Below, piece after piece: positions 7,997 through 54,846 of a stretch of 64,000 nucleotides of DNA. The position numbers and the translations under genes are program-made. The notes beneath the pieces are model-generated. The model worked only from the letters and a program-made list of their open reading frames with translations. It ran no database searches and was not told the DNA's origin. The stretch is from Bacteroidota bacterium (GTDB taxonomy: Bacteria; Bacteroidota; Bacteroidia; AKYH767-A; OLB10): contig JAGVTU010000017.1 in assembly GCA_019136655.1 (NCBI GenBank), positions 248,001 to 312,000 of the forward strand. Reading direction: 5' to 3'. The number at the start of each line of letters is the position of its first letter. Positions within the stretch are counted from its first letter, which is position 1.

Positions 7997-8029
7997 TAAT
8001 CAATTTCTTCTTTGTGTTTTTTACATTCG

Positions 8030-8037
8030 TATATTTG
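8030..8037 (+). promoter_or_regulatory. -7 element very close to the GNAT gene start
   Basis: TATATTTG is an exact TAnnTTTG match and ends 4 nt before the ATG. A TTTG lies at 8011-8014 with a 15-nt spacer, shorter than usual. If used, the transcript would be leaderless or nearly so. Confidence 0.45.
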
Positions 8038-8041
8038 AAGC

Positions 8042-8560: not shown

Positions 8561-8640
8561 AATCAGTTTTCAACAACTGTTGATATACGATAGTTTACAC
8601 AGATACTTTTTAGCAGATTTGCAGTTCAAATACACTAATT

Positions 8641-9036: not shown

Positions 9037-9737
9037 TTGGCAAACTCAGTATTATCATTCCTGTTTTTAATGAGGAAAAAAATATTGAAGAAGTATTACA
9101 GAATATTTTTTCAATACAACTACCCTTCGATATCAAAAAACAGGTTATTATAGTTGATGACCGTTCAACGGATGAAAGTGCCTCACGAATTGAAAAGTTA
9201 CTCAGCGAGAATAATGCCGATACTCATTTCATAAAACAAAAAGTCAATGGTGGAAAAGGTAGTGCCATCCGTGCAGGTTTGAGTGTTGCCACCGGTGATT
9301 ATCTGATTATTCAGGATGCAGATCTTGAACTCAATCCACAGGATATAAACAAACTGATTGAAGTTGCTATATCTCAGAAAGCTGATGTAGTTTATGGATC
9401 AAGATTTTTAAACAAACAACCCTACCCTGTTCCTCTCAAAACAAAAATTGCAAATCGTTTTCTTTCGTTGATGACATCGCTGATGACAGCCCGAAGAATA
9501 ACCGATATGGAAACCTGTTACAAACTCATCAGAAGTGCTCTGTTGCAAAATATTCAGTTAAAAGAAAATCGTTTTGGTTTCGAACCGGAAATCACCATGA
9601 AACTGTTGCGTAATAAAAATATTGTTTACAGAGAGTTTCCTGTTTCATATAAAGCACGAAGTCTGAATGACGGAAAGAAAATAGGACTGACAGACGGAAT
9701 AAGAGCTTTAATTTGTCTGATAAAATATCGTTTCTGA
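9033..9737 (+). CDS. Family 2 glycosyltransferase (dolichol-phosphate mannosyltransferase-like)
   Basis: The 234-residue GT-A enzyme opens with LSIIIPVFNEEKNIEEVL, then VDDRSTDES and the metal-binding QDADLELNP, with YGSRFL and the acceptor-side TDMETCYKLIR further on. These are hallmarks of the DPM1/GtrB-like branch that transfers sugar from a nucleotide sugar to a lipid phosphate. There is no C-terminal membrane domain. The GTG start overlaps the previous stop by 4 bp, and the next gene starts on an ATG sharing one base with this stop, which suggests translational coupling. A likely role is to make the lipid-linked sugar used by the GT-C-like protein that follows. Confidence 0.93.
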   Translation: MIGKLSIIIPVFNEEKNIEEVLQNIFSIQLPFDIKKQVIIVDDRSTDESASRIEKLLSENNADTHFIKQKVNGGKGSAIRAGLSVATGDYLIIQDADLELNPQDINKLIEVAISQKADVVYGSRFLNKQPYPVPLKTKIANRFLSLMTSLMTARRITDMETCYKLIRSALLQNIQLKENRFGFEPEITMKLLRNKNIVYREFPVSYKARSLNDGKKIGLTDGIRALICLIKYRF

Positions 9738-38884: not shown

Positions 38885-39793
38885 TTACCTTTTCTCAATC
38901 ACTGCATGAATTTCACTCACCACAAGGTCATCCACAGAGGTAATTTTATTTTTGAAACAAAGTGGATGTTGAATAATCAGGTCGGCAAAATGTGGCAATC
39001 TGAATTCTTCATAAGAATGAACCACTGTTTTGTCACTGAATTGTTTCTTAAATAATTCTCTGAACTGCTTGATGTGCCAGCGGTTGAGCGTATCATCAAT
39101 GACCAGTTTCTCTGCGCTGTTTTCAGCAATCCATTTATTGAGAAACATTTTGTCGAACAAAAACTGGCAGTATGGAACGCCTATGATGTTGTAGGCATGT
39201 GCACCAAATGGCGAATGATACAACGGAGCAAAACGAACAGACATCAGTCCGCCCTTGCGCAATACTCGCAGCGACTCCTGAAAAACTTTATCCGGTGACG
39301 GAAAATGCTCGTAGCAGTTATATGAAAATACAAAGTCGAAAGATTCATCTTCGAAAGTCAGGTTGGCAGCATCCATTTTCAGTAGTGCCACACCAGCTGC
39401 TTTGGCACGGGGGTCAAAATCATCTTCTCTGTATTCAATAGCCGTAGCTTTAAATCCATTTTGTTGCAGAGCTGCACATACCATCCCCTCTCCCGAACCT
39501 AACTCAAGTACATCACTGAATCCGTTTTTGCCATAACGGTTCATCACTTCCATCATTTCATTGGCGCGCTCATCTCCTCTATTCTTTACACTGTCATTAT
39601 CATAACTCATGCGTTCACCCACCGGGTAGGCTGCCATCAGGGTTTCGAAAGTTTTTTCATCCAAAACCTCAGACACTCCCTTGACCTGAGACAACACACG
39701 TGCTGCCTTAAAAAATTTCTGTTCGTGATACAAAGCCGACACTTTTTGCCGTGCTGTAGATGGCAAAAGTTTTCTGGCTAAATCTTTTATCAT
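38885..39793 (-). CDS. Class I SAM-dependent methyltransferase (UbiE/Methyltransf_11-like)
   Basis: The 302-residue protein has a Methyltransf_11 core at about 85-200: VLELGSGEGMVCAALQ is motif I, TAIEYREDDFDPRAKAAG covers the acidic end of strand 2, MDAANLTFEDESFDFVFSYN covers motifs II-III, and HFPSPDKVFQESLRVLRKGGLM is the post-motif. The substrate is unknown. It is transcribed away from the polyene-like cluster, 168 bp apart. Methyltransferases occur in aryl-polyene clusters, but the divergent orientation makes membership speculative. Confidence 0.85.
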   Translation of the reverse strand: MIKDLARKLLPSTARQKVSALYHEQKFFKAARVLSQVKGVSEVLDEKTFETLMAAYPVGERMSYDNDSVKNRGDERANEMMEVMNRYGKNGFSDVLELGSGEGMVCAALQQNGFKATAIEYREDDFDPRAKAAGVALLKMDAANLTFEDESFDFVFSYNCYEHFPSPDKVFQESLRVLRKGGLMSVRFAPLYHSPFGAHAYNIIGVPYCQFLFDKMFLNKWIAENSAEKLVIDDTLNRWHIKQFRELFKKQFSDKTVVHSYEEFRLPHFADLIIQHPLCFKNKITSVDDLVVSEIHAVIEKR

Positions 39794-39905: not shown

Positions 39906-39935
39906 TTGACTTTTGCTAAGTAAGATTTATATTTG
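39906..39935 (+). promoter_or_regulatory. Promoter at the head of the polyene-like cluster
   Basis: TTG (39906-39908), a 19-nt spacer and TATATTTG (39928-39935), with the first ACP start 26 nt downstream. It is the only strong promoter seen before 13 closely packed genes. Confidence 0.65.
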
Positions 39936-39961: not shown

Positions 39962-40213
39962 ATGAATAGAGAAGAAATAATTGCTATTACCAAGCGCTTT
40001 TTATCTGAAGAATTTGAAGTTGAGCAAGATAGCATTGAAGACAATAAAATACTGAAGGACACGCTCGAGTTGGATAGCCTTGACTATGTGGATTTGGTAG
40101 TAGTGATTGAGGAAAACTTTGGTTTTAAAACCACTGCCGAGGATTTTAAGACCATCTCCACTTTTGAAGACTTTTACAATTTTGTAGAGCGCAAACTCGG
40201 TGCTATGGCCTGA
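39962..40213 (+). CDS. Acyl carrier protein 1 of the polyene-like cluster
   Basis: The 83-residue four-helix ACP has the phosphopantetheine Ser39 in LELDSLDYVDLVV. It is not the usual housekeeping AcpP: the sequence around the site is ELDSLD rather than GADSLD, as often in secondary-metabolism ACPs. It opens the 13-gene run, 5 bp before the acyltransferase. It probably carries the growing polyene chain or its starter. Confidence 0.93.
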   Translation: MNREEIIAITKRFLSEEFEVEQDSIEDNKILKDTLELDSLDYVDLVVVIEENFGFKTTAEDFKTISTFEDFYNFVERKLGAMA

Positions 40214-40218
40214 TACCA

Positions 40219-41088
40219 ATGAGCCGGTGGGATGGCCGCAGTAAAGGGACGGCAACAGGTTACAGAATTTTTATTTATCTCATTGATAAGTTCGGAGTAA
40301 AAGCCGCTTATCGCCTGCTGTGGTTTGTTTCGTATTATTACTTTTTGTTTGCCGGAAATCCTAAAAAAAATATCATCCGATTTTATACCGAAGCTTTGGG
40401 CATGACTCCGGCTGAAGCAAAAAAACTTTGCAGAAAAAATTTTTATTATCTGGGCCAGACGCTGATTGACAGGAATGCTTTTTTATTAGGTAAAACTGAA
40501 AAATTTACCCACCATTTTGAAAACGAAGAATATCTTGTTGAACTGCAGCAGCAACATCATGGAGGAATTCTAATTAGTGCACATATCGGCAACTGGGAAA
40601 CAGCTGGAAATTTGCTTCATAAGCGTATATCCAAAAAAATTAATGTGCTGATGCTGGAAGCTGAAGAAGAAAAAATAAAAAAAGTGCTTGACGAAACTAC
40701 CGGTGGTGCGCGCTTTAACATCATTGCTATAAAAAATGATTTGTCGCATATTGTCAAAATAAACAATGCCTTGGAAGCAAATGAGCTTATAGCTATGCAT
40801 GCCGACCGTTACACAGATGGTGTAAAAACTATTTCTCTCGATTTTTTCGGGAAAAAAGCACAGTTTCCTCTGGGGCCTTTTCTTATTGCATCAAAGTTTA
40901 AAGCTCCTGTTACCTTTGTTTTCGCTCTCAAAGACGGTGATTTTCACTATGAACTGAGTGCCACCAAACCTTTGACAGGCAAACACAGTGCGGAGGAAAT
41001 TGCACGACTCTATGTTGACGAACTTGAAAAAAAAGTGAAAAAATATCCCGGACAGTGGTTTAATTATTACGATTTTTACAACGTATGA
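40219..41088 (+). CDS. LPLAT-family acyltransferase (LpxL/HtrB-like)
   Basis: The 289-residue protein has a membrane-associated N terminus (about 15-46) and the LpxL-type catalytic motif His122-x4-Glu127 in SAHIGNWETAG. MHADRYTDGVKT and FFGKKAQFPLGPF follow the family pattern. In lipid A synthesis such enzymes add secondary acyl chains; in aryl-polyene and xanthomonadin clusters a relative attaches the polyene acyl group to a lipid or sugar acceptor, the more likely role here. Its stop overlaps the next start (ATGA). Confidence 0.9.
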   Translation: MSRWDGRSKGTATGYRIFIYLIDKFGVKAAYRLLWFVSYYYFLFAGNPKKNIIRFYTEALGMTPAEAKKLCRKNFYYLGQTLIDRNAFLLGKTEKFTHHFENEEYLVELQQQHHGGILISAHIGNWETAGNLLHKRISKKINVLMLEAEEEKIKKVLDETTGGARFNIIAIKNDLSHIVKINNALEANELIAMHADRYTDGVKTISLDFFGKKAQFPLGPFLIASKFKAPVTFVFALKDGDFHYELSATKPLTGKHSAEEIARLYVDELEKKVKKYPGQWFNYYDFYNV

Positions 41089-41501
41089 TTTTAGAGCGAA
41101 ATGAAATTGAGAAAGTGATACCGCAGCGTGCCCCTTTTGTGATGATTGACACTTTGAAAGAAGCTGATGAAACAGGTTTCCGGAGTGAGTTTACTGCAAG
41201 AGCTGATAATATTTTTATGAAAGACAACAGACTTACCGAGCCTGCTTTGATAGAAAATATTGCTCAGACATGTGCTGCAGGTTTTGGATTTTTAGGAAGT
41301 CAGACCGAAGGGCAACCACGCATTGGATACATTGGTGCCATATCCCGCCTTACGGTGCACAACCTTCCTGCACTGGGAAGTACCATAACCACACACGTAA
41401 CAGTGTTGCATCAGATGGGCTCCATTTTTCTGGTGAAAGGAGAAAACGAGAGTGAAGGGAAAAAACTTATAAGTTGTGAAATGAAAATAGCACTTGCATG
41501 A
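41085..41501 (+). CDS. Hotdog 3-hydroxyacyl-ACP dehydratase-like protein (ApeP/COG4706-like)
   Basis: This 138-residue hotdog protein starts EIEKVIPQRAPFVMIDTLKEAD, a FabZ-like opening, but lacks the HFPxxPVxPG loop. In its place is NIFMKDNRLTEPALIENIAQTCAAG, which resembles the ApeP branch found in aryl-polyene clusters. A catalytic His is not obvious at the usual place, so activity may differ from FabZ. It overlaps both neighbours by 4 bp, indicating tight coupling. Confidence 0.82.
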   Translation: MILERNEIEKVIPQRAPFVMIDTLKEADETGFRSEFTARADNIFMKDNRLTEPALIENIAQTCAAGFGFLGSQTEGQPRIGYIGAISRLTVHNLPALGSTITTHVTVLHQMGSIFLVKGENESEGKKLISCEMKIALA

Positions 41502-41926
41502 AACATTTTTACCAGGCAGAGATACCAATAAAAATTCGCTTCAGCGATACAGATGCTATGGGAGTGGTGTGGCATGGCAATTACCTCCGTTTTTTTGAAG
41601 ATGCGCGCGAGGCTTTTGGAATAAAATACGGACTCACCTACCTTGATGTTTACAAGCGTGGTTTTTTTACTCCTATTGTAAAATCATCAGTAGAGCATAA
41701 AGCGCCTATCAACTATGGCGAAGAAGTTACTGCTATTGCCAAGTTTCATCCTACACCATCGGCCAAAATACTTTTTGATTTTGAAATACTGAATAAAACT
41801 ACCGGCAAACTCAGCGCCACCGGACATACCACACAGGTGTTTTTAGGAGTGGAATCGAGAGAAATGGAACTGATTAAACCTTCCTTCTATGTTGAATGGG
41901 AGAAAAAACTGGGAATAAAAATCTGA
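41498..41926 (+). CDS. Acyl-CoA/ACP thioesterase (YbgC/FadM, 4HBT family)
   Basis: The 142-residue hotdog thioesterase carries the 4-hydroxybenzoyl-CoA thioesterase signature IRFSDTDAMGVVWHGNYLR, with catalytic Asp17 and the HGNY loop, then FFEDAREAF. It would release or edit acyl or aryl thioesters. Thioesterases of this type are standard in aryl-polyene clusters. The next gene starts 3 bp downstream on GTG. Confidence 0.92.
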   Translation: MKHFYQAEIPIKIRFSDTDAMGVVWHGNYLRFFEDAREAFGIKYGLTYLDVYKRGFFTPIVKSSVEHKAPINYGEEVTAIAKFHPTPSAKILFDFEILNKTTGKLSATGHTTQVFLGVESREMELIKPSFYVEWEKKLGIKI

Positions 41927-41929
41927 GTT

Positions 41930-43009
41930 GTGAAAGTTTATTTGGGAGCCGAATCCATTATCAGTCCGTCAGGAAATGCTGAAGAGTGCTTTGAGAAAAT
42001 TGAAGAAGGCATTGCAGGCATAAAAAATTATTGTGACAGAGGTTTTAATAAAGAGAGTTTTTATTTATCGGCTTTTGAACATCGCAATTTTTCATTCGAA
42101 CAGTTGTTGAAGGATGCAATTCTTCAGTCACTAAAAAGTTTTGATGAGAAATTAATTACTTCCGACAAAACACTTCTCATCATCAGCTCTACCAAAGGTG
42201 ATTTAAGCAAAGGCTATGCTCAGGCACTCACAGCACCGGCATCAGCCATACAAAAAGATTTACGGCTGAAACATTTTCCTCTGATAATTTCAAATGCCTG
42301 CGCTTCGGGTGTGATGGCGATAAATTTAGCAGCTCATCTGCTTCAGACAAAAAAGTTTGAACATATTATTGTTGCCGGTATAGATTTAATTTCTGATTTC
42401 ATTCTTTATGGTTTTCAGTCGCTGTATGCATTAAGCAATGAAGCAAGCAAGCCATTTGACAAAGAACGAAAAGGAATAAATCTTGGCGAAGGTGCAGCTG
42501 CCGTTGTGGTAAGCACACAACCGTCTGCATTTAAGAGCGAATGTTATCGTTGGCTTGGAGGCTGCACTGCAGGCGATGCCAACCATATTTCAGGACCTTC
42601 ACGAACCGGTGAAGGATTATACCGAAGTGTCTTAGCCACATTAAAAGCTTCAGGCTTGACAACAGGTGATATTGACTTTATTTCTGCTCATGGCACTGCC
42701 ACTTTGTTCAATGACGAAATGGAAGCAATAGCCATGAACCGGCTAAGTATGCAACACATTCCGCTGAACAGTTTTAAAGGATTTTTTGGTCACACACTGG
42801 GTGCTGCCGGAATTATTGAAACAGCCATGTGCATTCAGTCAATGAGAAAAAATGTGCTTCTCAAAAGTGTTGGATATGATGAATGTGGTACCTCTGTGCC
42901 GCTGCATATCATTGAAGAAAGTAAACCTTGCAACATCAATACGGTTTTAAAAACTGCATCCGGTTTCGGAGGATGCAATGCTTCGTTAATCATTCAAAAA
43001 AACAGCTGA
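41930..43009 (+). CDS. Beta-ketoacyl-ACP synthase, catalytically complete
   Basis: The 359-residue KAS I/II-type condensing enzyme has an intact triad: Cys124 in SNACASGVMAIN, His254 in SAHGTATLFNDEMEA and His288 in KGFFGHTLGAAG. It is slightly short for FabF (about 410) because of trimmed loops in the N-terminal half. The GTG start follows the thioesterase stop by 3 bp. It resembles the single KS encoded beside the dehydratase in polyene clusters rather than housekeeping FabF. It may start chains or pair with the chain-length-factor-like gene downstream. Confidence 0.92.
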   Translation: MKVYLGAESIISPSGNAEECFEKIEEGIAGIKNYCDRGFNKESFYLSAFEHRNFSFEQLLKDAILQSLKSFDEKLITSDKTLLIISSTKGDLSKGYAQALTAPASAIQKDLRLKHFPLIISNACASGVMAINLAAHLLQTKKFEHIIVAGIDLISDFILYGFQSLYALSNEASKPFDKERKGINLGEGAAAVVVSTQPSAFKSECYRWLGGCTAGDANHISGPSRTGEGLYRSVLATLKASGLTTGDIDFISAHGTATLFNDEMEAIAMNRLSMQHIPLNSFKGFFGHTLGAAGIIETAMCIQSMRKNVLLKSVGYDECGTSVPLHIIEESKPCNINTVLKTASGFGGCNASLIIQKNS

Positions 43010-43011
43010 AG

Positions 43012-43599
43012 ATGACTACATGGTGCCGCTGGAAAGGGGATAAAGTTTTATTAAATGGCGAACTGTTTTTTCAGTGCGACAAAAACAATTCGGAAGATAT
43101 GGCATTGCAACTCTACCGTTTTCTGAAAATTGATTATCCAAAATTTCACAAAATGGATTCACTGAGTAAAACAGGCTTTCTGTTGACTGAAATTATTAAA
43201 ACCATAGAAGATACAGGTCGTTTTGCTGATGATGAAATTGCAATGGTATTTGCCAATAATCACTCATGCAGTGAGACAGATATAAAATTTGAACATTCCT
43301 ATCTGGAAGATAAAACTCCGTCACCTGCACTTTTTGTTTATACGCTACCCAATATTGTAACAGGAGAAATATCCATACGCAACAAATGGTATGGCGAATC
43401 GGCAGTTTACATACTTCCTGCATTTGATGCCGGTTTTTTTGAAGATCAGAAATCATTATTACAGCCACATACCAGAGCATTGGTGGCAGGATGGCTGCAA
43501 CTCATCCCTGAAACCGATGCATTTATTTACTTTGCAGAAAAAACTGCTGGAGAGCCGTTCAGCACAGAAAAAATATTACAAGCATATCATTCATTATAA
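43012..43599 (+). CDS. Small ketosynthase-like protein (Ketoacyl-synt_2 type)
   Basis: I start it at the ATG 2 nt after the previous stop, giving 195 residues; an upstream TTG extension to 42928 would run deep into the previous gene. Only the N-terminal half of a thiolase fold is recognisable: MVFANNHSCSETDIKFE, then SPALFVYTLPNIVTGEISIRNKWYGES, which corresponds to the KS region around the active-site strand. No Cys sits at that site and the His/His C-terminal half is missing, so it is probably non-catalytic, perhaps a structural or gating partner. Similar short proteins occur in polyene/flexirubin-type clusters. Confidence 0.75.
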   Translation: MTTWCRWKGDKVLLNGELFFQCDKNNSEDMALQLYRFLKIDYPKFHKMDSLSKTGFLLTEIIKTIEDTGRFADDEIAMVFANNHSCSETDIKFEHSYLEDKTPSPALFVYTLPNIVTGEISIRNKWYGESAVYILPAFDAGFFEDQKSLLQPHTRALVAGWLQLIPETDAFIYFAEKTAGEPFSTEKILQAYHSL

Positions 43600-43601
43600 A
43601 G

Positions 43602-43859
43602 ATGGAAAACCTCAAGGAAGAACTGAAAAAACAAATTATTGAACAATTAAATCTGGAAGACAAAAAGCCGTCAGATATAGCTGACGATGCACCATTGTTT
43701 GGCGACAACGGACTTGGACTTGACTCTATTGATGCCCTTGAACTGATTGTTCTCTTAGACAAACATTACCACATCAAACTGTCAAATCCGGAGGAAGGGA
43801 AAAAAGTTTTTAACTCCATTAACTCCATGGCTGAATACATCAACCAGGCAAAAAAGTAA
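43602..43859 (+). CDS. Acyl carrier protein 2 of the polyene-like cluster
   Basis: The 85-residue ACP has Ser42 in GLGLDSIDALELIVLL as the phosphopantetheine site. The spacing from the helix-1 region and the LFGDNGLGLDSID block match ACPs of aryl-polyene clusters better than AcpP. It starts 2 bp after the small KS-like gene and 7 bp before the next KS. Two different ACPs in one run suggest separate carriers for starter and chain, or for two lines. Confidence 0.93.
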   Translation: MENLKEELKKQIIEQLNLEDKKPSDIADDAPLFGDNGLGLDSIDALELIVLLDKHYHIKLSNPEEGKKVFNSINSMAEYINQAKK

Positions 43860-43866
43860 ACTCACA

Positions 43867-45045
43867 ATGAGTGTGTATGTTACAGGCATGGGCATCATTT
43901 CAGCTGTTGGAAACAATGTGGCTGAAAATCTCTCTTCACTTAAGGAGAGAAGAAGTGGTATCCGTAAAACAAAGTTGGCCTGTCATCCGCATGAAATATT
44001 TGCAGCACCTGTAAATTTATCTGACGAAGACCTGAGAACTCGCTTTCAGGTTTCGAACACGCCTCATTCAAGAACCTCCCTGTTGGGCATTGCCGCAGTG
44101 GCCGAAGCCTGGGGCAGTAATAAACATCTGCCCAATGTGCGTACTGCATTTATCGGATCTACTTCTGTTGGCGGTATGGATAAAACAGAAAAATATTACC
44201 GACAGGCGCTTGAAGGAAATTCTGCTGACTTTTCACTTGTGCAAACACATGACAGTGGCAACACTTCTGAAAAAATTGCGCATCACTTCGGAATAAAAGG
44301 TTATATCAACACCTTGTCAACAGCGTGTTCATCTGCTGCCAATGCACTGATGCTCGCTGCACGCATGCTTGAACATGGCCATGCTGACCGAATTGTAGCA
44401 GGAGGCTCCGACCCTTTGACGGGATTTACCATCAGCGGATTTCAGTCGCTGATGATTTATGATGAGGATTGGTGCAAACCATTTGACGAAAACAGAAACG
44501 GACTGAACCTTGGCGAAGGCGCTGCCTACCTTGTTCTTGAAAACGAAAAAAGTATTTCTGCAACAGGAAACAAACCACTCTGTTTGCTGAAAGGATGGAG
44601 CAATGCAGCAGATGCCTATCACCAAACCGCATCGTCACCGGAAGGAAAAGGAGCAACACTTGCCATGAAAAATGCTATCGAAAAATCAGGAGTTGCACTG
44701 AGTGATATTTCCTACATCAATGCACATGGCACCGGAACAAAAAACAACGACCTGAGTGAGTCAACTGCACTGCAGAATATTTTTGGCAAAAACATTCCGC
44801 CCTTCAGCTCAACAAAAGCTTTTACCGGACATACTCTTGCTGCAGCAGGTGCCATCGAAGCAGTGTATTCGGTGTTGTCCATCGTACATCAGGTATTGCT
44901 GCCCGGATTAAATTACAAAACCGTTATGTCGGAAACAGGATTGACTCCTGTAACTGAATACAAATCCTGCCAGGTAAATGCAGTTCTTTCCAATTCTTTT
45001 GGTTTTGGAGGCAACAATACATCTTTAATTTTTAAAAAAATCTGA
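43867..45045 (+). CDS. Beta-ketoacyl-ACP synthase (FabF-like), catalytically complete
   Basis: The 392-residue condensing enzyme starts MSVYVTGMGIISAVGNNVAEN, like FabF. Its triad is Cys154 in LSTACSSAANAL, His287 in NAHGTGTKNNDLSE and His322 in KAFTGHTLAAAG. It is directly followed, 3 bp later, by a gene for a partner-like protein with Gln at the Cys position. This side-by-side layout is that of KS-alpha/KS-beta heterodimers in type II polyketide and aryl-polyene systems, so it is the most likely elongating KS. Confidence 0.94.
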   Translation: MSVYVTGMGIISAVGNNVAENLSSLKERRSGIRKTKLACHPHEIFAAPVNLSDEDLRTRFQVSNTPHSRTSLLGIAAVAEAWGSNKHLPNVRTAFIGSTSVGGMDKTEKYYRQALEGNSADFSLVQTHDSGNTSEKIAHHFGIKGYINTLSTACSSAANALMLAARMLEHGHADRIVAGGSDPLTGFTISGFQSLMIYDEDWCKPFDENRNGLNLGEGAAYLVLENEKSISATGNKPLCLLKGWSNAADAYHQTASSPEGKGATLAMKNAIEKSGVALSDISYINAHGTGTKNNDLSESTALQNIFGKNIPPFSSTKAFTGHTLAAAGAIEAVYSVLSIVHQVLLPGLNYKTVMSETGLTPVTEYKSCQVNAVLSNSFGFGGNNTSLIFKKI

Positions 45046-45048
45046 ACG

Positions 45049-46005
45049 ATGTATTACATTCAATCCTCTGCATATATTTCACATCAGGATACTTTTCGCA
45101 AGAAGGGATTCTCAAAAAATCTCTCTGAAAATATTTCGACTTTAATCAAACCTGATTACAAAGAATTTATCAATCCGGCTCTCATACGAAGAATGAGTGA
45201 AGTGCTTCGTATGTCAGTAGCCTGTGGCAGTGCTGCATTGCAGGATGCAGGTGTGAAAACAGCCGATGCCATCATTGCAGGTACCGGCCTTGGTTGCCTC
45301 ATGGACACTGAAAAATTTTTGAATAACGTAATCACCATTCAGGGAGGTATGCTCCCTCCTACTTCATTCATTCAGTCAACTCACAACACCATTGCAGGGC
45401 AACTTTCGCTGGCACTCTCCTGCCACAGTTATAATATGACGCATACACAAAACAGTTTGTCGTTTGAGTATGCATTGTCAGACGCCATGCTGATGCTGGA
45501 TGAACAGCAGGGAAATATTCTTGCGGGTGCTGCCGATGAATATATTGATCCCTTGCAGCCTGTTGCAAATCATTTTGGTTTAAACCGTTTTCCACTGACA
45601 TCAGGAGCAGGATTTTTTGTTTTGTCAGATAAGGCTTCAGCACACACAAATGCTGTATTAGCAGATGTGCTTGCCATTCACGACAGCGATGAAAATATCT
45701 GTAAAGATTTTCTTGAAAGAAATCATCTCTCTTCTCCTGATTTTATTCTTACAGATGGATATCATGATGACACCAAGCGCATCTCTCAGAATTTTTCTGA
45801 AACACCTGTAATTCCATACACTCCTCTTTGTGGAATGTATGCTACATCATCAGCGTTTGCCATGCATCTTGCCATTGATATCCTTCAGCAGAAAACAGAA
45901 CAAGTTTCAGGAACTGCAATCAGACAACATCGCAATGCACTTATTATAAATCAACTTTTACCGGGCCGTACAGGACTCATCTTAATAAAAAACTATGAAG
46001 CATAA
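45049..46005 (+). CDS. Chain-length-factor-like ketosynthase homologue (Cys replaced by Gln)
   Basis: The 318-residue thiolase-fold protein aligns with a KS: AIIAGTGLGCLMDTEKFL near the start, PPTSFIQSTHNTIAGQLSLAL, then NMTHTQNSLSFEYAL, where KS enzymes have TACSS. Gln134 takes the place of the nucleophile Cys, as in KS-beta/CLF subunits. The C-terminal half is reduced and the HGT and GHT histidine motifs are lost. It probably forms a heterodimer with the preceding KS and sets chain length. It overlaps the deacetylase gene by 11 bp. Confidence 0.82.
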   Translation: MYYIQSSAYISHQDTFRKKGFSKNLSENISTLIKPDYKEFINPALIRRMSEVLRMSVACGSAALQDAGVKTADAIIAGTGLGCLMDTEKFLNNVITIQGGMLPPTSFIQSTHNTIAGQLSLALSCHSYNMTHTQNSLSFEYALSDAMLMLDEQQGNILAGAADEYIDPLQPVANHFGLNRFPLTSGAGFFVLSDKASAHTNAVLADVLAIHDSDENICKDFLERNHLSSPDFILTDGYHDDTKRISQNFSETPVIPYTPLCGMYATSSAFAMHLAIDILQQKTEQVSGTAIRQHRNALIINQLLPGRTGLILIKNYEA

Positions 46006-46747
46006 AATCGTAACTGTCGTTTTTATTCTTGCATTAATTCTTACAGGGATTTTGTATTACAACAATTCAAATCTGATTCCTGTTCTCACTGTAATTCTGG
46101 TAATCTATCTTGCAATAACGGCATTGGGGTCGTATCAGATAAAACTTAATTACTACATCACTTCTCTGAACAAAACCAACAGCGACAGCATTGCACTCAC
46201 TTTTGATGATGGTCCTGACCCTGCCACCACTCCTCAGATACTTGAAATTTTGAAACTTGCCAATCTGAAAGCAAATTTTTTTGTGATTGGGAAAAATGCA
46301 GAAAAATATCCTGAACTGATAAAAGCTATAGCAGCTGACGGACATACCATCGGCAATCATTCCTATTCTCATTCTGCAGGTATAGGATTATTCTCCAGAC
46401 AGAAATTAGTGAATGACGTAAACCAATGCACTGAAGCGATTGAGAAAATTACCGGAGTGAAACCTGTTTTATTCAGACCGCCATTTGGTGTTACCAATCC
46501 GCGTTATGCCTATCTGCTTCAGACAACAGGACTAAAATCCATCGGATGGAGTATCAGAAGCTACGACACAACCATAGAAAATGAAAAAAAACTATACAAC
46601 CGAATAACTTCACAATTAAAAGCGGGAAGTATCGTACTTTTACATGATACCAGCACAACAACCATACGAATGTTACCCTCACTCATCAACTATTGCAATC
46701 AAAACAATTTACCTATAAAACCGATTAACGAACTTACAGAACAATGA
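45995..46747 (+). CDS. Polysaccharide deacetylase (NodB) family protein
   Basis: The 250-residue protein has two membrane segments at about 7-24 and 27-43, then a NodB domain: ALTFDDGPDPATTPQIL holds the catalytic Asp and metal Asp, GNHSYSHS holds the metal His pair, and RPPFGVTN and VLLHDT complete the motif set. Such domains remove N-acetyl or other acyl groups from sugars. In this cluster it may tailor a sugar or lipid head group of the polyene. Its stop overlaps the lolA-like start by 4 bp. Confidence 0.9.
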   Translation: MKHKIVTVVFILALILTGILYYNNSNLIPVLTVILVIYLAITALGSYQIKLNYYITSLNKTNSDSIALTFDDGPDPATTPQILEILKLANLKANFFVIGKNAEKYPELIKAIAADGHTIGNHSYSHSAGIGLFSRQKLVNDVNQCTEAIEKITGVKPVLFRPPFGVTNPRYAYLLQTTGLKSIGWSIRSYDTTIENEKKLYNRITSQLKAGSIVLLHDTSTTTIRMLPSLINYCNQNNLPIKPINELTEQ

Positions 46748-47373
46748 AACACCTTCACCGATTATTTTGGTTAATGCTTTTAATAACTTCTGCTGTAGCT
46801 GCACAAAACCCCGAGCCGCTGTCTGACAGTAAAGATTTTATTTCGAGACTGAAAGAGCAAAGCCAACAAAACAAAACCATCAAAGCAGATTTTACTGAAG
46901 AGCGTTATATGTCTGTACTGAAGGAGCCACAGAAGTCTAACGGAATATTTTATTACAAAAAGGACAATATGCTGCGCTGGGAGAAAACAGCACCTTCGTC
47001 ATACATTTTTATCAGTGCCGACAATAAAGTGAAGGTTCGCGAGAGTGATAAAATTAAAGATGTTTCTTCCGTCAATCAGGTAATCGGCAGAATAAAAGAT
47101 TTGATGCTGACACTAGTGAATGGAAATTTCAACGACAGCAAACAGTTTGAACCCAGTTATTTTCAGACAGCTCAGTCGTATATCGTAAAACTAAAACCTA
47201 AGAATAAGCGAATGAGTAATTCTTTCGAATATATTCAACTCAGCTTTAACAAAAAAAATATGCTGCTCGATGAACTTTCCTTCTTTGAAAAATCAGGTGA
47301 CAAAAATGTGATGAAGTTCAGCAATCAGCGTGTAAATATTCCATTGGCCGATACCTTATTTACTAATTTCTGA
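46744..47373 (+). CDS. LolA-like outer-membrane lipoprotein carrier protein
   Basis: The 209-residue protein has a signal peptide (about 1-20, ending in AVAAQ) and the LolA fold: FTEERYMSVLKEPQKSNGIFYYKKDNMLRWEKTAP is the typical opening, and the later YIVKLKPKN and IQLSFNKKNMLLDEL strands fit. A LolA-like carrier is a standard member of aryl-polyene clusters, where it is thought to ferry the lipid-linked pigment across the periplasm. This copy is probably dedicated to that, not to general lipoprotein sorting. Periplasmic location is inferred. Confidence 0.9.
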   Translation: MKHLHRLFWLMLLITSAVAAQNPEPLSDSKDFISRLKEQSQQNKTIKADFTEERYMSVLKEPQKSNGIFYYKKDNMLRWEKTAPSSYIFISADNKVKVRESDKIKDVSSVNQVIGRIKDLMLTLVNGNFNDSKQFEPSYFQTAQSYIVKLKPKNKRMSNSFEYIQLSFNKKNMLLDELSFFEKSGDKNVMKFSNQRVNIPLADTLFTNF

Positions 47374-47375
47374 AG

Positions 47376-47723
47376 ATGCTGCTGAATTCATTCTTCTTTA
47401 TTCAAAAAAATGATGACGGTGTTTATCGCCTGCAACTGAATGCCGATCATGTAATTTACAAAGGGCATTTCCCTGAAAATCCTGTTACTCCCGGTGTGGT
47501 GCTGATACAGATGCTTACCGAGCTGATGCAACAGCATACAGGCAAAGCAGTGCGACTGATTTCCATCCCTTCCTGTAAATTTTCAAAAACGCTGAATCCT
47601 TTTGAATATCCATTTGTCAACTACAGCATTAAAACAACACAAAGCGACAACCACATTCAGGTGAGTGCACAGGTGGAAGAAGAAGGAACGCTGTTTTGTA
47701 AAATATCAGCAGTGTACGAATGA
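47376..47723 (+). CDS. Hotdog 3-hydroxyacyl-ACP dehydratase (FabZ/ApeI-like)
   Basis: The 115-residue protein has the full dehydratase loop: GHFPENPVTPGVVLIQMLTE, with catalytic His31. It is shorter than FabZ (about 145) and matches the ApeI-type dehydratase. With the ApeP-like protein, the cluster has two hotdog enzymes, as aryl-polyene systems do. Its stop overlaps the next start by 4 bp. Confidence 0.9.
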   Translation: MLLNSFFFIQKNDDGVYRLQLNADHVIYKGHFPENPVTPGVVLIQMLTELMQQHTGKAVRLISIPSCKFSKTLNPFEYPFVNYSIKTTQSDNHIQVSAQVEEEGTLFCKISAVYE

Positions 47724-48889
47724 TTCAACTGAATGTAATTCATGCCTGTGTCATTGTGCCTACCTTCAACAATGACAAGACACTGGAAAGAGTGTTGACA
47801 GGTGTTCTTACATTCAGCAATGGCAATGATGTGATTGTAGTAAATGATGGTTCTACGGATAACACCGATGCTGTTCTTGAAAAATTTCGCAACAGAATTA
47901 TTCTGCTAAAGAATGAAAAAAATCAGGGAAAAGGATTTTCATTGCGCAAAGGATTTGCAGAAGCCATCAACAGAGGATTTAAAAATGCTATAACTATTGA
48001 CAGTGACGGACAACATTACCCTGACGACATCAGCGTGATGATTGAAAATGCACAGCTCCATCCGGGTGCATTGCTGATGGGCTCACGCAATATGAATCAG
48101 GAAAATGTTCCGGGGAAAAGTTCTTTTGGAAATAAGTTTTCAAAGTTCTGGTTTTGGATTGAAACAGGTCAGAAACTTCCTGATACGCAAACAGGTTTTC
48201 GGCTGTATCCTCTTGATGAGCTGAAACACATTCGCTTGTTCACACGCAAATTTGAAACTGAAATTGAAGTAATCGTAAGGCTTGCATGGAGAGATGTAAA
48301 AATTATTGCAGTGGCTGTGAAAGTATTATATGACCCTGATGAACGTGTTTCGCACTTCAGACCTTTTCGTGATTTTACGCGCATCAGCATACTCAACACC
48401 TGTCTGGTTTTTCTTACACTGATTTATTTTCTTCCTAAGCGCATCATTCAGTATCTCTGGCGCAAAGGAATTATCACTGTGCTGAAAGAAGAAATTTTCC
48501 GCAGTGATGAAAGTAATTTCAAAAAGGCAGCATCTGTTGGCTTTGGTGTTTTTATGGGCATTGTTCCCATCTGGGGTTTTCAGCTGCTGGTAGGAATTCC
48601 TTTGGCTGTTTTAATGCGAATGAATAAAGTTTTGTTTATTGCCGCTGCCAACATCAGCATTCCTCCAATGATTCCACTTATCATTTTTGCAAGCTACTAC
48701 ACAGGAGGATTTTTTGTAAAAGAGAAAATGCGTTTCCAAAGTCTGGCAGAAATTAATCTCGAAAGTATCCATGCCAACTTTATACAATATGCCACCGGTG
48801 CATGCATACTGGCTGTAATTGCCGGTGCAATAGCTGCAGTGATTACTTATATGGCATTCAGTATTTATAAATTCAGGAAAGTAAGATGA
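47720..48889 (+). CDS. Glycosyltransferase 2-DUF2062 fusion membrane protein
   Basis: Residues about 5-230 form a GT-A domain: HACVIVPTFNNDKTLERVL, VVNDGSTDNTD and TIDSDGQHYPDDI, the metal-binding loop, with LPDTQTGFRLYP further on. The C-terminal about 130 residues are a DUF2062 domain with three membrane segments (GFGVFMGIVPIWGFQLLVGIPLA and two more). It would glycosylate a lipid-linked product at the membrane. It is the last gene of the run; its TGA is one base before the direct repeat that bounds the adjacent island. Confidence 0.9.
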   Translation: MIQLNVIHACVIVPTFNNDKTLERVLTGVLTFSNGNDVIVVNDGSTDNTDAVLEKFRNRIILLKNEKNQGKGFSLRKGFAEAINRGFKNAITIDSDGQHYPDDISVMIENAQLHPGALLMGSRNMNQENVPGKSSFGNKFSKFWFWIETGQKLPDTQTGFRLYPLDELKHIRLFTRKFETEIEVIVRLAWRDVKIIAVAVKVLYDPDERVSHFRPFRDFTRISILNTCLVFLTLIYFLPKRIIQYLWRKGIITVLKEEIFRSDESNFKKAASVGFGVFMGIVPIWGFQLLVGIPLAVLMRMNKVLFIAAANISIPPMIPLIIFASYYTGGFFVKEKMRFQSLAEINLESIHANFIQYATGACILAVIAGAIAAVITYMAFSIYKFRKVR

Positions 48890-49096: not shown

Positions 49097-51997
49097 TTAT
49101 ACACTTGTTGAATTTGTTACCACATCAAAATCTGCTCCGATGGCTTCAAAATGCTTTCTGCCACATTTGATTTTGTCTGCTTCTGAATTACGGAGCTTTT
49201 CAAAGTTTTTGGTGCTTTTTGTTTCTCTTACCAAATAAATGGTTTCATCATTGTGCTTTACTATTGCCCAGTCGGGGTTGTATGTACCAATAGGGGTTTC
49301 TACTTTGAAGAATGCAGGTAGTTTTACAAATAGCTTTATATCTTCTCTCTTGTCTAATTCTTCGGCAAAACGTCTTTCTACTTCGCTATCATAAATAACT
49401 GCATTATAAACTGATTTTTGAACCTGCAAACATTGTTCAAAGTAGTCTTTCAATTCTTCTTCTCGGAATAGCTGCATACTCCATTCTACCTGCCCTGTTG
49501 TTAGTTTTTCGTACTTAATTCCGTCAATCATTAACTTGTGTAATTCCCGATTGATAATTCCGGCTACTGCATCCATAAACTTCTGTGGATTGATGGCAAA
49601 CTCAGCAATTCTGTTGGAACCTGAAAGTATCTTTACCAATGTGGCTCTTGTGAGTTCTGTTTCTTTTTGCAGGTAGGCAAGAATATCAGGCAGAATGCCT
49701 GAATATTCAATTTTTATCTCATTGGCTTTTGTGTTGGTGGTTGTTACCCCTTTCTTTTCAATACCAACAATATCTTCCCTGTATGATACTTTAACCGCTT
49801 CAATTTTTTCCATTTCTGAAATAGACTTAATTGCGTTAGCAATTAAGGTGTCTGTTGAGTAATCAACCTGATAGGTAGTGCGGTGCTTGATTTTATTCCA
49901 AAGGATTTCAAACTCAGGGTCGAGAAATATCTGTTTGTTGATTTTGAGCCTTTTGGGTTCTTCGTCTTTTTTGATGTGTCTTTCTAATAGGTACGATTGT
50001 AAAACGGTGATGATTTCCGCTTCCTGTTCTGCAAACTGCTCGGACAAGCCCAATGAAAATCCTTCTTTAGCAGGGTTGAATGCAGACTGTATTTTGCCGT
50101 TGGCATCTACAAACCCTTTGCTTACTAATTCTGCCCAAATATCTTCACTTGCTTTTCTGCCTAATGGTTTTTCTTCTTCACCTTCTAAAACAGATAATTT
50201 TGAGAATGCAATTTTGGGTACTTTACCAAAGGTAACGCCACAATCGTCTTCATACTCTTTTTGCAGCCCTGCTGCAAAATCTGCATAGCTTTCACGTGCA
50301 ATTACAGTTAGTTTGTTGATGTTATCGTCTTTTACTCTTTCGCCATCTGCATTTACTGGCAAACGAAGCCCACGACCTAATGTTTGTCTGCGTTCTTTTG
50401 TACTACCTACTTCTCTTAAAACACAAATCTGGAATACATTCGGGTTGTCCCAACCTTCACGAAGTGCAGAGTGTGAAAAGATAAATTTCAATGGCTCGTC
50501 CATTGAAAGTAATTGCTCCTTGTTACGCATAATTTTTGCGTAGGTATCATCATCTGCCTGTGTGCTTCCGTTGGTGTCTTTGAATACCCCTTTTTTGTCT
50601 GCTGAGAAATACCCATCGTGTAGCTTGTCCACCGGGAAAACATCTAATTCCTTGTATTGTGGCAACTTGATTAACTCGCTGTAATGGTATTCAAACAATT
50701 CAGCAAACTTGCCTTTAGCAGGTTTGCCTTCTGAATCATAGATACGGTAATTGGCAACCTTATCAACAAAAAACAAACTCAATACTTTAATGCCTTTACC
50801 TTTTAATTGCAACTCTTTATCCAAGTGCTTTTTGATGGTATTTTTGATTTGCACTTCTATCAGATCATCTGTGATACCACCCCTTTCCTGACCTAAGTAC
50901 AAACGACCTGAAGTAAAGTCTATAAACTCATTACCTGGTTCACAACTGATGTCTAAAACTTCAAAACCATTACGGTAGGCTTCTCTTTCATTGGATAAGG
51001 TATATAAATCTGCATTTTGCTTTACCCAAAAATCTTTCTCTTTTACACTTCCTTTGTCTTGAACTTGTATTTTAACTTTTGCTTTTATTCCGCTTTTGTT
51101 GTCCACTTCCATCAATTTGATGTAAGCATCATTTTGAGCATTTGCACCAACTACTGAGGCAACTACAATTTGCTTCACCAAACGCAATTCATACGCCTTA
51201 ATTGGGTCGAGCTTGTAAACAAGGTTGTACAAGTTTTTGTGCGTAGCAGAAAAACGGAATATGCACAAAGGATTGAGAGATTTGATGGCTTCCTGTGCTT
51301 TTGGGGTATTGTCCACACTTTGGGGTTCGTCTATCAAAACAATAGGGCGAACTGAATGGATAAAGTCTCTTGGGCTAAATCCGCTTAATTGGTTGCGTTC
51401 CTGATTGAAGATGTTTGTTTCTTTATTGAAAGCATCAATATTGATAATCATTATCTGCAACTGGTTGCTGGTGGCAAATTGCCGAAGGCGATTTGCTTTC
51501 TTGCTATCATATACAAAATGCTCAAACTCTATATTGTTGTAAAGTGCCTTGAAGTGCTCTCCTGTAATTTCAATATTCTTTAGTGTGCCTTCCCGGATGG
51601 CTACACTTGGCACTACAATGATGAACTTCTTGAAACCATACTTTTGGCTCAACTCAAATATGGTACGCAGGTAAACGTAAGTTTTACCTGTGCCTGTTTC
51701 CATTTCTACGGAGAAGTTTAAGCCATTATTTTGAAATTCTGTTTCGGTGGTTGGGTCTAAATCATTTCTTTCCTGAATGGCTTGTAAGTTCTTTAATAGG
51801 GTATCATCCATAAGGGTCAGATGATTGCCAATGCCTAACTCGGTTTGTATGGTGCTTAATTGCTGCCCCGCTTCTGCTTTTGCATTGATTTCTATGGTAT
51901 AGTCGCCTTGGTTTAACGGTTGACCATCAAACAAATCAACAAAGCTGCTTACAGCTTGTATTTGATATTCTTGGGTGCTGTCGAACTTTAACTTCAT
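49097..51997 (-). CDS. res: Type III restriction enzyme Res subunit
   Basis: I chose the ATG at 51997, 4 nt past the upstream stop, giving 966 residues that open MKLKFDSTQEYQIQAVSSF as Res proteins do; a longer frame to 52030 overlaps kilA-N. Walker A is ETGTGKTY (100-107), motif II is DEPQ (223-226), and superfamily 2 motifs continue to GRGLRLPV. The nuclease domain near the end has Pro908-Asp909 followed by Glu925-x-Lys927, the PD-(D/E)xK core. With Mod it translocates on DNA and cuts near unmodified sites. It is complete and shows no frameshift. Confidence 0.95.
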   Translation of the reverse strand: MKLKFDSTQEYQIQAVSSFVDLFDGQPLNQGDYTIEINAKAEAGQQLSTIQTELGIGNHLTLMDDTLLKNLQAIQERNDLDPTTETEFQNNGLNFSVEMETGTGKTYVYLRTIFELSQKYGFKKFIIVVPSVAIREGTLKNIEITGEHFKALYNNIEFEHFVYDSKKANRLRQFATSNQLQIMIINIDAFNKETNIFNQERNQLSGFSPRDFIHSVRPIVLIDEPQSVDNTPKAQEAIKSLNPLCIFRFSATHKNLYNLVYKLDPIKAYELRLVKQIVVASVVGANAQNDAYIKLMEVDNKSGIKAKVKIQVQDKGSVKEKDFWVKQNADLYTLSNEREAYRNGFEVLDISCEPGNEFIDFTSGRLYLGQERGGITDDLIEVQIKNTIKKHLDKELQLKGKGIKVLSLFFVDKVANYRIYDSEGKPAKGKFAELFEYHYSELIKLPQYKELDVFPVDKLHDGYFSADKKGVFKDTNGSTQADDDTYAKIMRNKEQLLSMDEPLKFIFSHSALREGWDNPNVFQICVLREVGSTKERRQTLGRGLRLPVNADGERVKDDNINKLTVIARESYADFAAGLQKEYEDDCGVTFGKVPKIAFSKLSVLEGEEEKPLGRKASEDIWAELVSKGFVDANGKIQSAFNPAKEGFSLGLSEQFAEQEAEIITVLQSYLLERHIKKDEEPKRLKINKQIFLDPEFEILWNKIKHRTTYQVDYSTDTLIANAIKSISEMEKIEAVKVSYREDIVGIEKKGVTTTNTKANEIKIEYSGILPDILAYLQKETELTRATLVKILSGSNRIAEFAINPQKFMDAVAGIINRELHKLMIDGIKYEKLTTGQVEWSMQLFREEELKDYFEQCLQVQKSVYNAVIYDSEVERRFAEELDKREDIKLFVKLPAFFKVETPIGTYNPDWAIVKHNDETIYLVRETKSTKNFEKLRNSEADKIKCGRKHFEAIGADFDVVTNSTSV

Positions 51998-52001
51998 AAG
52001 G

Positions 52002-52886
52002 CTATTCAGGTAATTGGTTTTGAGAGCCATCTTCCAAATAAATATCCGGTGATGTTTTTTTGATGGATTTCAAAAAATCTTGTTTATTCAAGATTTCTAA
52101 CTGGTATTTTGCAATTTCATATAGTTTCTGAAAACGAACTTGCCTTGCAATACCGTTTCGCATCATATCAGCATTGGCTGATTCCAAATTGGAGAGTACT
52201 GCCAATTCATTGATACTTGCAACATCCCTTATGTTCATTTCTTGCAGGGCTAATTGTGGGTTGGCTTCACGCCATTGTTTTGCTGTACATTGAAATAAGG
52301 CAAGATTGAGTACATCTGCTTCTTCGGCATATTCCAAGCTTTTTTTGGCTTCCGGTAAGGTAGAATGTGGAATAACGTAATCCTTTATGGCATCTGTTTG
52401 AATGGTATAGTTTACTTTACTTAAAACACGTTTTACGTTCCACTCTAAATTGTAATGGTTGCTCTCAACTTCTTTAAGCCTTTGGTATTCTTTAATTAAG
52501 TACAACTTGAAACTTGGATTTAACCAAGTAGCAAATTCAAAGGCAATGTCTTTGTGGGCATAAGTACCGCCATACCTGCCGGATTTTGAGATAATTCCGA
52601 TAGCATCAGTTGCTTCTATCCATTTTCGAGGGGTAAGATTAAAGTTGTTTAAGCCTGTTTGTTTTCTAAAGGTGTCGAATTCGACACCTTTAAAATTTGG
52701 ATTATTCAATTGTTCCCATAACCCAAGAAATTCAACGGTGTTTCTGTTACGCATCCAGTTTCGGATGTAATCATCACCTTCTTCTGACCTTACTATATCA
52801 GTGAGTGATATATAGTCTATTTCGTTGATATTCAAAATAGTGATATCTATGTTTTGAACCTGTATTTTCTTGTTTTGCTTGCTCAT
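52002..52886 (-). CDS. KilA-N domain protein
   Basis: The 294-residue protein has an N-terminal KilA-N domain (about 5-145): ISLTDIVRSEEGDDYIRNWMRNRNTVEFLGLWE, then TPRKWIEATDAIGIISKSGRYGGTYAHKDIAFEFATWLNPSFKLYLIKEYQRLKE in two blocks. The C-terminal half is helical with no family I can name. KilA-N is a DNA-binding domain from phages and large DNA viruses, also seen beside restriction genes in Bacteroidota. Here it lies 34 bp after mod and 4 nt before the chosen res start, so it is made with the system. A regulatory or specificity role is inferred. Confidence 0.85.
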   Translation of the reverse strand: MSKQNKKIQVQNIDITILNINEIDYISLTDIVRSEEGDDYIRNWMRNRNTVEFLGLWEQLNNPNFKGVEFDTFRKQTGLNNFNLTPRKWIEATDAIGIISKSGRYGGTYAHKDIAFEFATWLNPSFKLYLIKEYQRLKEVESNHYNLEWNVKRVLSKVNYTIQTDAIKDYVIPHSTLPEAKKSLEYAEEADVLNLALFQCTAKQWREANPQLALQEMNIRDVASINELAVLSNLESANADMMRNGIARQVRFQKLYEIAKYQLEILNKQDFLKSIKKTSPDIYLEDGSQNQLPE

Positions 52887-52920
52887 TTTTCAATCTTTAA
52901 TTGTGGCGATTTCGCCATAT

Positions 52921-54846
52921 TTAAACCGTTCTAAAGTTTACAACACCTTTGCTTTTCATTATTTGAACTGCATTGGTTTTTAGTGCATCTGCATTTTCGC
53001 CTTTGAAGCCTTCATCTAAGCAAATAACCCTTGTAGGTTGCATTTCTGCCATTGCCTTAATGCATTCGTGGGTGAGTTCTTTTTCAAGGCATATCAATAA
53101 CTGCCCTTCGGCAATGCTGAAAACAGTTAAGCCTGCTAACGTGAGTTTTTCAATGGGCGTGGTAAGCTCGAAACCTGATTTAAGCAACAACTCATACAAT
53201 ATGGCTTCTTGCTCTGCTTCGGGTGAAATGTGCTGTATATGCTCAAACAATTTTGCCTGGATAACTTCTGGCTCTTTCTCTAAGGTATTTTCCCAAATTT
53301 TGAAGTTTGATTTTGATAGTTTGAATACTTTGAAACCGAGGTCTGGTGAATTAACAATATCAGTACCAAAAATAGTTGATTCTTCATCCTTTCTTTTACT
53401 CTTGAAATCCCCACCAATTTTTGAAGCGGCTCTTTTAATTCTTTCCTTACTTATGTCTGCAATATTTTTATACCCTACTTTAAATGCTTCGGATTCTTCT
53501 GTTGTAGGTTCAGGAATTTGAACACAAATAAATTTTCTTCTCTTATTCTCAATTGCATTCAACTCCATAACAGCGTGTGCAGTTGTCGCAGAACCTGCGA
53601 AAAAGTCAAGAATTATATCATCATCTTCTTGTGACGATAGTTGAATAATTTTCTTCAGTAAGTCAACAGGTTTAGGAAAATCAAAGACTTTCTTTGAATC
53701 AAAAAGCTGACGTGTTTCGATAGTTGCTTTTTTATTACCTTCAATGTCGTTCCACAAGTTACCAGGCTGTTTTAACCTATTTTCTAAATAAAATTTTTGA
53801 TATACCTGCCAATTACCATTTACTTTCCGCCATTCTATCAAATTGTTTTTAACCATTTCTTCATATTTCGCTTTACCGCAAATCCATCTACTCTCATATC
53901 CGGTAGGGCCATAAGGAAATATATCTTCATTGTCTGGGCTTTTAATAGCATAAAACATACTCGGCCTATCTTCTCGTCTATCTTCACCACCAGTTCTTCT
54001 TAATGAACGAGTCAAGTATTTACCACCTTCATCTTCCTGATTGTAAATAGCCGCTTCTTTATCATTTAATGGAAGCCCTTCAATTGATTTGTAAATATTA
54101 TCTTTTGAATAAACGAGGATATAATCTACTTCATTTACAATTGCCTTGTTACCACCCCCTGTTGGAGTGCCAGTTGCTCTTGAAATTTGTGAGACAAAAT
54201 TTTCTTCACCAAAAACTTCATTACAAACATTTCTTAGATTATGTATTTCATTATCATCAATTGAAATAAAAATAATACCATCATCACTTAGTAAATTTTT
54301 TGCCAAAAACAACCGAGGATACATCATATTAAGCCACTTGCTATGAAAACGTCCATCTGTATCTGTATTAGTGCCAAACTTTCTGCCTTCCGAATCAATT
54401 TGCCCTGTATATTGTAAATAAGTTTCTAACGTTTCTGAGTAGTTATCTGGATAAATAAATTCTTTGCCTGTATTGTATGGGGGGTCGATATAAATCAATT
54501 TAATCTTCCCTAAATAGCTCTTTTGTAGTAGCTTCAATACTTCCAAGTTGTCACCTTCAATGAATAGGTTTTCGGTGGTGTCAAAGTTCACGCTTTCTTC
54601 CCTTGCAGGTATGAGTGTTGCAATGCTTGGCTGCTGAATGGTTTTAAAACAGTCGGCTTTGCCCGGCCAGTTCATTCCATAGCGTTCTTTGCCTACATCT
54701 ATACTTTGCCCCAAAGTAAGGCGTAGTTTATCCCAATCTACTTTCAGCCCTTCGGTGAATGCTTCAGGGAAAAGTTCTTTTAGCTTTCTCAATTGCTCTT
54801 CGGCTATATTCATTGAGGTGAGTTCTTGCTTTTGTATTTCTGACAT
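52921..54846 (-). CDS. mod: Type III DNA methyltransferase Mod subunit
   Basis: The 641-residue beta-class N6-adenine methyltransferase has motif IV DPPYN (121-125) before motif I FFAGSA (415-420), the order that defines the beta class. The roughly 200-380 region between them is the target-recognition domain that sets the site. A C-terminal part of about 150 residues completes the Mod-type layout. It both modifies the host DNA and directs Res. It starts 12 nt after the SNF2 gene stop. The recognition sequence cannot be predicted by eye. Confidence 0.95.
   Translation of the reverse strand: MSEIQKQELTSMNIAEEQLRKLKELFPEAFTEGLKVDWDKLRLTLGQSIDVGKERYGMNWPGKADCFKTIQQPSIATLIPAREESVNFDTTENLFIEGDNLEVLKLLQKSYLGKIKLIYIDPPYNTGKEFIYPDNYSETLETYLQYTGQIDSEGRKFGTNTDTDGRFHSKWLNMMYPRLFLAKNLLSDDGIIFISIDDNEIHNLRNVCNEVFGEENFVSQISRATGTPTGGGNKAIVNEVDYILVYSKDNIYKSIEGLPLNDKEAAIYNQEDEGGKYLTRSLRRTGGEDRREDRPSMFYAIKSPDNEDIFPYGPTGYESRWICGKAKYEEMVKNNLIEWRKVNGNWQVYQKFYLENRLKQPGNLWNDIEGNKKATIETRQLFDSKKVFDFPKPVDLLKKIIQLSSQEDDDIILDFFAGSATTAHAVMELNAIENKRRKFICVQIPEPTTEESEAFKVGYKNIADISKERIKRAASKIGGDFKSKRKDEESTIFGTDIVNSPDLGFKVFKLSKSNFKIWENTLEKEPEVIQAKLFEHIQHISPEAEQEAILYELLLKSGFELTTPIEKLTLAGLTVFSIAEGQLLICLEKELTHECIKAMAEMQPTRVICLDEGFKGENADALKTNAVQIMKSKGVVNFRTV

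Follow-up and report, generated by a model that had tools for sequence, protein, structure and literature searches.

A probable central flexirubin operon in a Bacteroidota genome, with candidate partner genes at four other loci

The analysed window (64,000 nucleotides, C2:248001-312000 of a 2.96-Mb genome in 27 contigs) carries 13 co-directional open reading frames on the + strand between positions 39962 and 48889 (Table 1). All 13 genes of the preliminary description were confirmed, and all are intact with catalytic motifs. The spacing between successive genes is 5, -4, -4, 3, 2, 2, 7, 3, -11, -4, 2 and -4 bp. The tight packing described before (gaps of 2-8 bp or overlaps of 4 bp) thus stands with gaps of 2-7 bp, but the overlaps range from 4 to 11 bp, with a single one of 11 bp. 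A scan with the Bacteroidota -33/-7 promoter consensus placed a promoter-like pair just 5' of the first ATG of the block, where a promoter had been suggested. The gene names given earlier agree with Pfam and NCBIfam almost throughout; for the half-KS the support comes from its AlphaFold fold. Upstream of the block a divergent SAM-methyltransferase gene (window 38885-39793, - strand) occupies the same place in the congeners G039 (95%) and G040 (58%). Just 3' of the block lies a type III restriction-modification island (window 49097-54846, - strand) with a res subunit, a KilA-N-domain protein and an N6_N4 methylase, which looks variable since it was not found at the corresponding position in either congener.

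Table 1. Features of the block (window positions) and of the further pathway loci (contig positions).
Feature	Position	Strand	Evidence
Promoter-like pair TTG-19-TATATTTG, Bacteroidota -33/-7 type	39906..39935	+	pattern scan, 200 bases upstream
ACP1, acyl carrier protein, Ser motif LELDS	39962..40213	+	PF00550 E 1.6e-8
LpxL/HtrB-type acyltransferase (LPLAT)	40219..41088	+	PF03279 E 7e-20
DH1, FabZ-like hotdog	41085..41501	+	NCBIfam FabZ E 1.7e-7
4HBT thioesterase	41498..41926	+	PF13279 E 4e-16
KS1, Cys-His-His ketosynthase, short N-terminus, GTG start	41930..43009	+	PF02801/PF00109
Half-KS lacking the active-site Cys, predicted chain length factor of ApeC-like type	43012..43599	+	AF2 pLDDT 91.6 and fold matches
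ACP2, Ser motif GLDS	43602..43859	+	PF00550 E 1.1e-7; NF006617 above cut-off
KS2, Cys-His-His ketosynthase, ApeO-like	43867..45045	+	PF00109/PF02801; 6qsp_A
CLF-like truncated KS, no Cys, ApeC-like	45049..46005	+	PF13723; 6qsp_B, 7f28_A profile matches
Polysaccharide deacetylase family protein	45995..46747	+	PF01522 E 3e-35
LolA2, flexirubin-specific LolA	46744..47373	+	NF053544 160.7 bits, cut-off 125
DH2, hotdog	47376..47723	+	PF07977
GT2 glycosyltransferase fused to DUF2062	47720..48889	+	PF00535 and PF09835
C3 locus: a run of ammonia lyase, SDR and KS genes (FlxA, FlxB, FlxC)	C3:52349-55844		
FlxA, tyrosine ammonia-lyase	C3:52349-53896		NF053541 779.7 bits, cut-off 700; ASGD (MIO) motif
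FlxB, ketoreductase	C3:53893-54624		NF053542 394.4 bits, cut-off 340
FlxC-like KS	C3, same run as FlxA, FlxB		
C15 locus: Trp_halogenase-domain flavoprotein, CrtI-like protein, 1,272-aa MMPL protein	C15:106521-113167		
Large MMPL exporter	C15:109349-113167		homology to exporter of contiguous flx clusters
C5 locus: O-methyltransferase, 210-aa protein, FlxY, AAT/C45 acyltransferase-like protein	C5:14445-19323		
O-methyltransferase, FlxJ family	C5:14445-15560		NF053543 473.7 bits, below cut-off 560
FlxY, aryl-CoA ligase (4-coumarate CoA ligase)	C5:16358-17665		NF053551 613 bits, cut-off 520
dar locus: DarA-like, DarB, DarG, DarH, ABC transporter, KS	C2:11141-18093		
DarA, DarB, DarG, DarH (dialkylresorcinol synthesis)	C2:11141-14603		

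KS1 and KS2 both keep Cys-His-His and both acyl carrier proteins carry the Ser; the active-site Cys motif was found neither in the CLF-like protein nor in the half-KS (motif check). KS2 is related to ApeO (6qsp_A, E 5e-56), and the profile of the CLF-like protein matches ApeC (6qsp_B, E 3.7e-6) and 7f28_A (E 8.5e-6). For the half-KS, whose start is best placed at ATG 43012, the Pfam and NCBIfam searches gave no family match and the sequence search no solved relative; its relatives were found by fold. The best PDB matches of its AlphaFold model (mean pLDDT 91.6, 38-row alignment) are the small chains of 7f28 (E 2.9e-6) and 6qsp_B (ApeC, E 1.1e-5), so the predicted fold comes closest to chain length factors of the ApeC type. 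As KS1 and KS2 keep Cys-His-His and the two other proteins are ApeC-like without the Cys motif, the block probably contains two KS/CLF pairs, in which the half-KS would be the partner of KS1 and the CLF-like protein that of KS2.

The two hotdog dehydratases can be compared with FabZ, whose catalytic pair consists of His and Glu. DH1, which has no Pfam match and matches NCBIfam FabZ models weakly, keeps the Glu (IENIAQ) and has no His 14 residues before it, so that the catalytic His is absent. DH2 keeps the His of GHFP and carries Gln at the position of the Glu. We compared this to approximately 60 homologues of each from the loci L111-L190: the Glu motif occurs in 61 of 65 DH1 homologues, 60 of these 61 without the preceding His, and the Glu position of the DH2 homologues is held by Gln (45/63), Glu (17/63) or Gly (1/63). 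In aryl polyene (APE) clusters the ApeI/ApeP dehydratase is heterodimeric with a single active site (PMC8041823). The half sites of DH1 and DH2 are complementary and would fit such a heterodimer, with DH1 in the ApeP-like and DH2 in the ApeI-like role.

With its KS/CLF, ACP and dehydratase core, the ApeO/ApeC-like character of KS2 and CLF and a LolA2 above the NF053544 cut-off, the block holds core parts of an aryl-polyene/flexirubin-type pathway, as had been proposed. It is also true that the window has no ketoreductase, no ammonia lyase, no aryl-CoA ligase, no halogenase-like enzyme and no MMPL exporter: when the whole genome was searched with MMPL, Lyase_aromatic, SDR (adh_short_C2) and AMP-binding, no match fell inside C2:248001-312000. 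The view of a pathway without reductase, starter and export genes does not hold for the genome, where all of them are present. Four further loci were found on C3, C15, C5 and at the other end of C2, with a candidate for each of the five listed functions. This is in agreement with the earlier suggestion that the missing functions are borrowed: FlxA, FlxB and FlxC are encoded on C3, the MMPL protein on C15, FlxY on C5 and the dar genes on C2.

The NCBI curated cut-offs are also exceeded by DarB (575 bits, cut-off 550), DarG (186, 170) and DarH (470, 300); DarA has no family match and is named by its place beside DarB and by homology. The MMPL protein on C15 shares 35-36% identity over nearly its full length (35% over 1,270 residues) with the exporter inside contiguous flx clusters. 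Since this is the full-length relative, another MMPL protein of 786 aa (C2:30801-33161) was rejected as the pathway exporter. The AAT/C45 acyltransferase-like protein on C5 may be FlxW. The dar locus lies approximately 270 kb from the block. More than 10 kb, containing other genes, separates the loci from the contig ends, so that they are not adjoining pieces of one cluster cut by the assembly. In the preliminary description a complete second polyene cluster elsewhere would have spoken against its reading; a genome-wide KS search revealed no second polyene core. Two other genes were noted on the way: a GH3-family protein like the lyso-ornithine lipid synthetase OlsH (C2:20373-21920; 340 bits, below the cut-off of 620), approximately 2.3 kb past dar, and a 2,239-aa ORF with AMP-binding and ketoacyl-synthase domains near a FabG-like gene (C7, approximately 8,000-11,000), which would belong to an unrelated biosynthetic locus.

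In Dyadobacter and several Flavobacteriales flxA-flxB-flxC stand directly before these 13 genes, whose order is unchanged, so that the window contains a flexirubin core separated from the genes that adjoin it there. Outside the genus, the nearest named relatives are Dyadobacter species and Flavobacteriales MAGs. Dyadobacter-type clusters (e.g. L112-L118) are among the closest of these, with identities of 43-48% for the CLF, 57-64% for KS2 and 62-66% for TAL. Their flxABC genes directly precede ACP1 and their MMPL gene lies divergently upstream, whereas here both are on other contigs. Dyadobacter sp. HH091 was reported to be flexirubin-positive in the KOH test (PMC9606717). FlxC is found at most five ORFs upstream of the LPLAT gene in 33 of the 34 named loci with enough upstream sequence, the exception being OLB10, from the genus of the window.

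Within the order, LolA2_flexi is above cut-off in 9 of 42 genomes; FlxA is above cut-off in the same nine, and all nine contain a relative of FlxY. One of the order genomes, G011, has all pieces except dar in a single run: flxABC, ACP1, LPLAT, DH1, a 227-aa protein, thioesterase, KS1, a methyltransferase, a flavoprotein, half-KS, ACP2, KS2, CLF, deacetylase, LolA2, a 215-aa protein, DH2, GT2, MMPL, and CrtI-like, AAT-like and FlxY genes. Here flxABC is directly 5' of ACP1, and MMPL directly 3' of GT2. In the four genomes of the window's genus (its own, G039, G040 and G041), none of flxABC, the MMPL group and the FlxY group shares a contig with the core.

One of the closest known systems is that of Chitinophaga pinensis, for which flx genes as well as TAL and 4CL activities are published and whose flx and dar loci are separate (Cpin_1853-1877 and Cpin_6850-6851; PMC3992019). 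Like C. pinensis, the genome encodes TAL, SDR, several KS, two dehydratases, thioesterase, deacetylase, acyltransferase, LolA, GT, exporter and 4CL, with dar apart. Unlike C. pinensis, where flxA to flxY form one cluster, the flx genes are found in four pieces and dar is the fifth locus. The APE clusters of E. coli, Xenorhabdus and Acinetobacter share with the block the ApeO/ApeC-type KS/CLF pair, ApeI/ApeP-type hotdogs, LolA, GT and thioesterase. APE synthesis starts from 4-hydroxybenzoate via ApeH (PMC8253772), and the genes listed for APE include neither a tyrosine ammonia-lyase nor dar, whereas here FlxA and FlxY equivalogs and dar are present. An ApeH-type acyl-ACP synthetase is missing from the window, which gave no AMP-binding match; the ligase of the pathway is FlxY on C5.

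Flexirubin is a yellow-orange outer-membrane pigment of Bacteroidota, an ester of a polyene with a dialkylresorcinol, and turns red in KOH. As LolA2_flexi, FlxA, FlxB, FlxY, DarB, DarG and DarH are above their cut-offs and synteny is found in relatives, we consider the block very probably the central operon of a flexirubin (flx) pathway that is encoded at five separate sites of the genome. FlxA would deaminate tyrosine to 4-coumarate, FlxY would activate it and FlxC would probably take part in priming. The ACPs, KS1/half-KS and KS2/CLF of the window could then, together with FlxB and the putative DH1/DH2 heterodimer, extend the starter to an aryl polyene. The Trp_halogenase-domain flavoprotein, the CrtI-like protein and the O-methyltransferase may tailor this polyene, and the thioesterase may release it. 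DarA, DarB, DarG and DarH would provide the dialkylresorcinol, and one acyltransferase (the AAT/C45 protein, DarH or the LPLAT of the window) could join both halves, with the MMPL protein and LolA2 transporting the product to the outer membrane. We regard this as a well-explained, ordinary case of flexirubin, the production of which is predicted from sequence.

The product could also be an aryl polyene to which no dialkylresorcinol is attached, with dar as a separate system, and which is kept as a free acid or a lipid or glycolipid ester like the aryl polyenes of Gram-negative bacteria. The distance of dar and the GT2, deacetylase and LPLAT genes within the block could be read in this way, and no DarB orthologue was found in G041, of the same genus, or in G002, of the same order, which are listed as 99-100% complete and carry FlxA and LolA2. 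However, the genome has its own DarB, DarG (the flexirubin equivalog) and DarH above cut-off, and the proven producer C. pinensis has separate loci as well (PMC3992019), which makes an unjoined polyene unlikely. DarB is present in the window's genome, G039 and G040; G041 has flx loci, with no DarB orthologue found, so that the dialkylresorcinol half may be dispensable in the genus. A related proposal concerns the genus as a whole: its polyene branch could run uncoupled from the dialkylresorcinol branch, with some other lipid as the anchor of the pigment. We hold such an uncoupling of the two branches for doubtful, if slightly less so; starter, extension, tailoring/export and resorcinol supply could then be controlled separately through the scattered genes.

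A non-aryl polyene, or some lipid of quite another kind, was considered in the preliminary description alongside an acylated glycolipid; the sole argument for it is that the window itself has no starter genes. With FlxA and FlxY equivalogs in the genome, the joint presence of FlxA and a FlxY relative in all nine order genomes with LolA2_flexi, and the position of the block directly behind flxABC in Dyadobacter, this has become next to negligible; flexirubin, with FlxA, FlxY and dar, supersedes it and there is no need to assume a different product. That the block is what remains of a decaying, no longer functional flexirubin cluster would be in line with the broken-up genes and with the adjoining variable island. 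It is nevertheless highly improbable, as the 13 ORFs are intact with catalytic motifs, and as the split layout is found again, with mostly intact ORFs, in congeners down to approximately 60% protein identity, which argues for selection. The island was also rejected as the cause of the break, since the blocks of G039 and G040 likewise end after GT2, with other neighbours.

The flexirubin reading implies that a cluster judged incomplete from one window can belong to a complete pathway scattered over the genome, and predictors that expect adjacent parts might report a core of this kind as an orphan or as an unusual polyene. The genus, of uncultured Bacteroidota and including the MAG OLB10, joins the likely flexirubin makers with a set that is apparently of the Dyadobacter/Flavobacteriales type and not that of its own order. 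In quick trees with one gene from each of three loci, KS2 (window), TAL (C3) and 4CL (C5), the last from a set without Dyadobacter, the genus groups with Dyadobacter/Flavobacteriales/Crocinitomicaceae types away from its own order. A clade with the order-mates was rejected (AU p 1.4e-5 for KS2, 1.8e-4 for TAL, 4.5e-51 for 4CL). The simplest reading of these trees is that the whole set goes back to one origin, other than that of the order-mates, through transfer or old paralogy, and that the scattering came later.

Literature searches found no published accounts of split flexirubin clusters beyond C. pinensis. The 33 contiguous loci among 34 suggested that the split is a peculiarity of the genus, which is contradicted by a class-wide sample of 158 genomes, 26 of them with both FlxA and LolA2 markers. 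The two markers are at most 30 kb apart in 7 of the 26, 645 kb apart on one contig in one, and on different contigs in 18, some of which may be assembly breaks. Together with the separate flx and dar loci of C. pinensis this indicates that scattering is a common state, of which five loci are at most a modest extreme. We further report that in G191, a genome of the same class assembled in one contig, FlxA gave no match at the threshold used and LolA2_flexi is well above cut-off, so that it perhaps carries an flx-like core with another starter.
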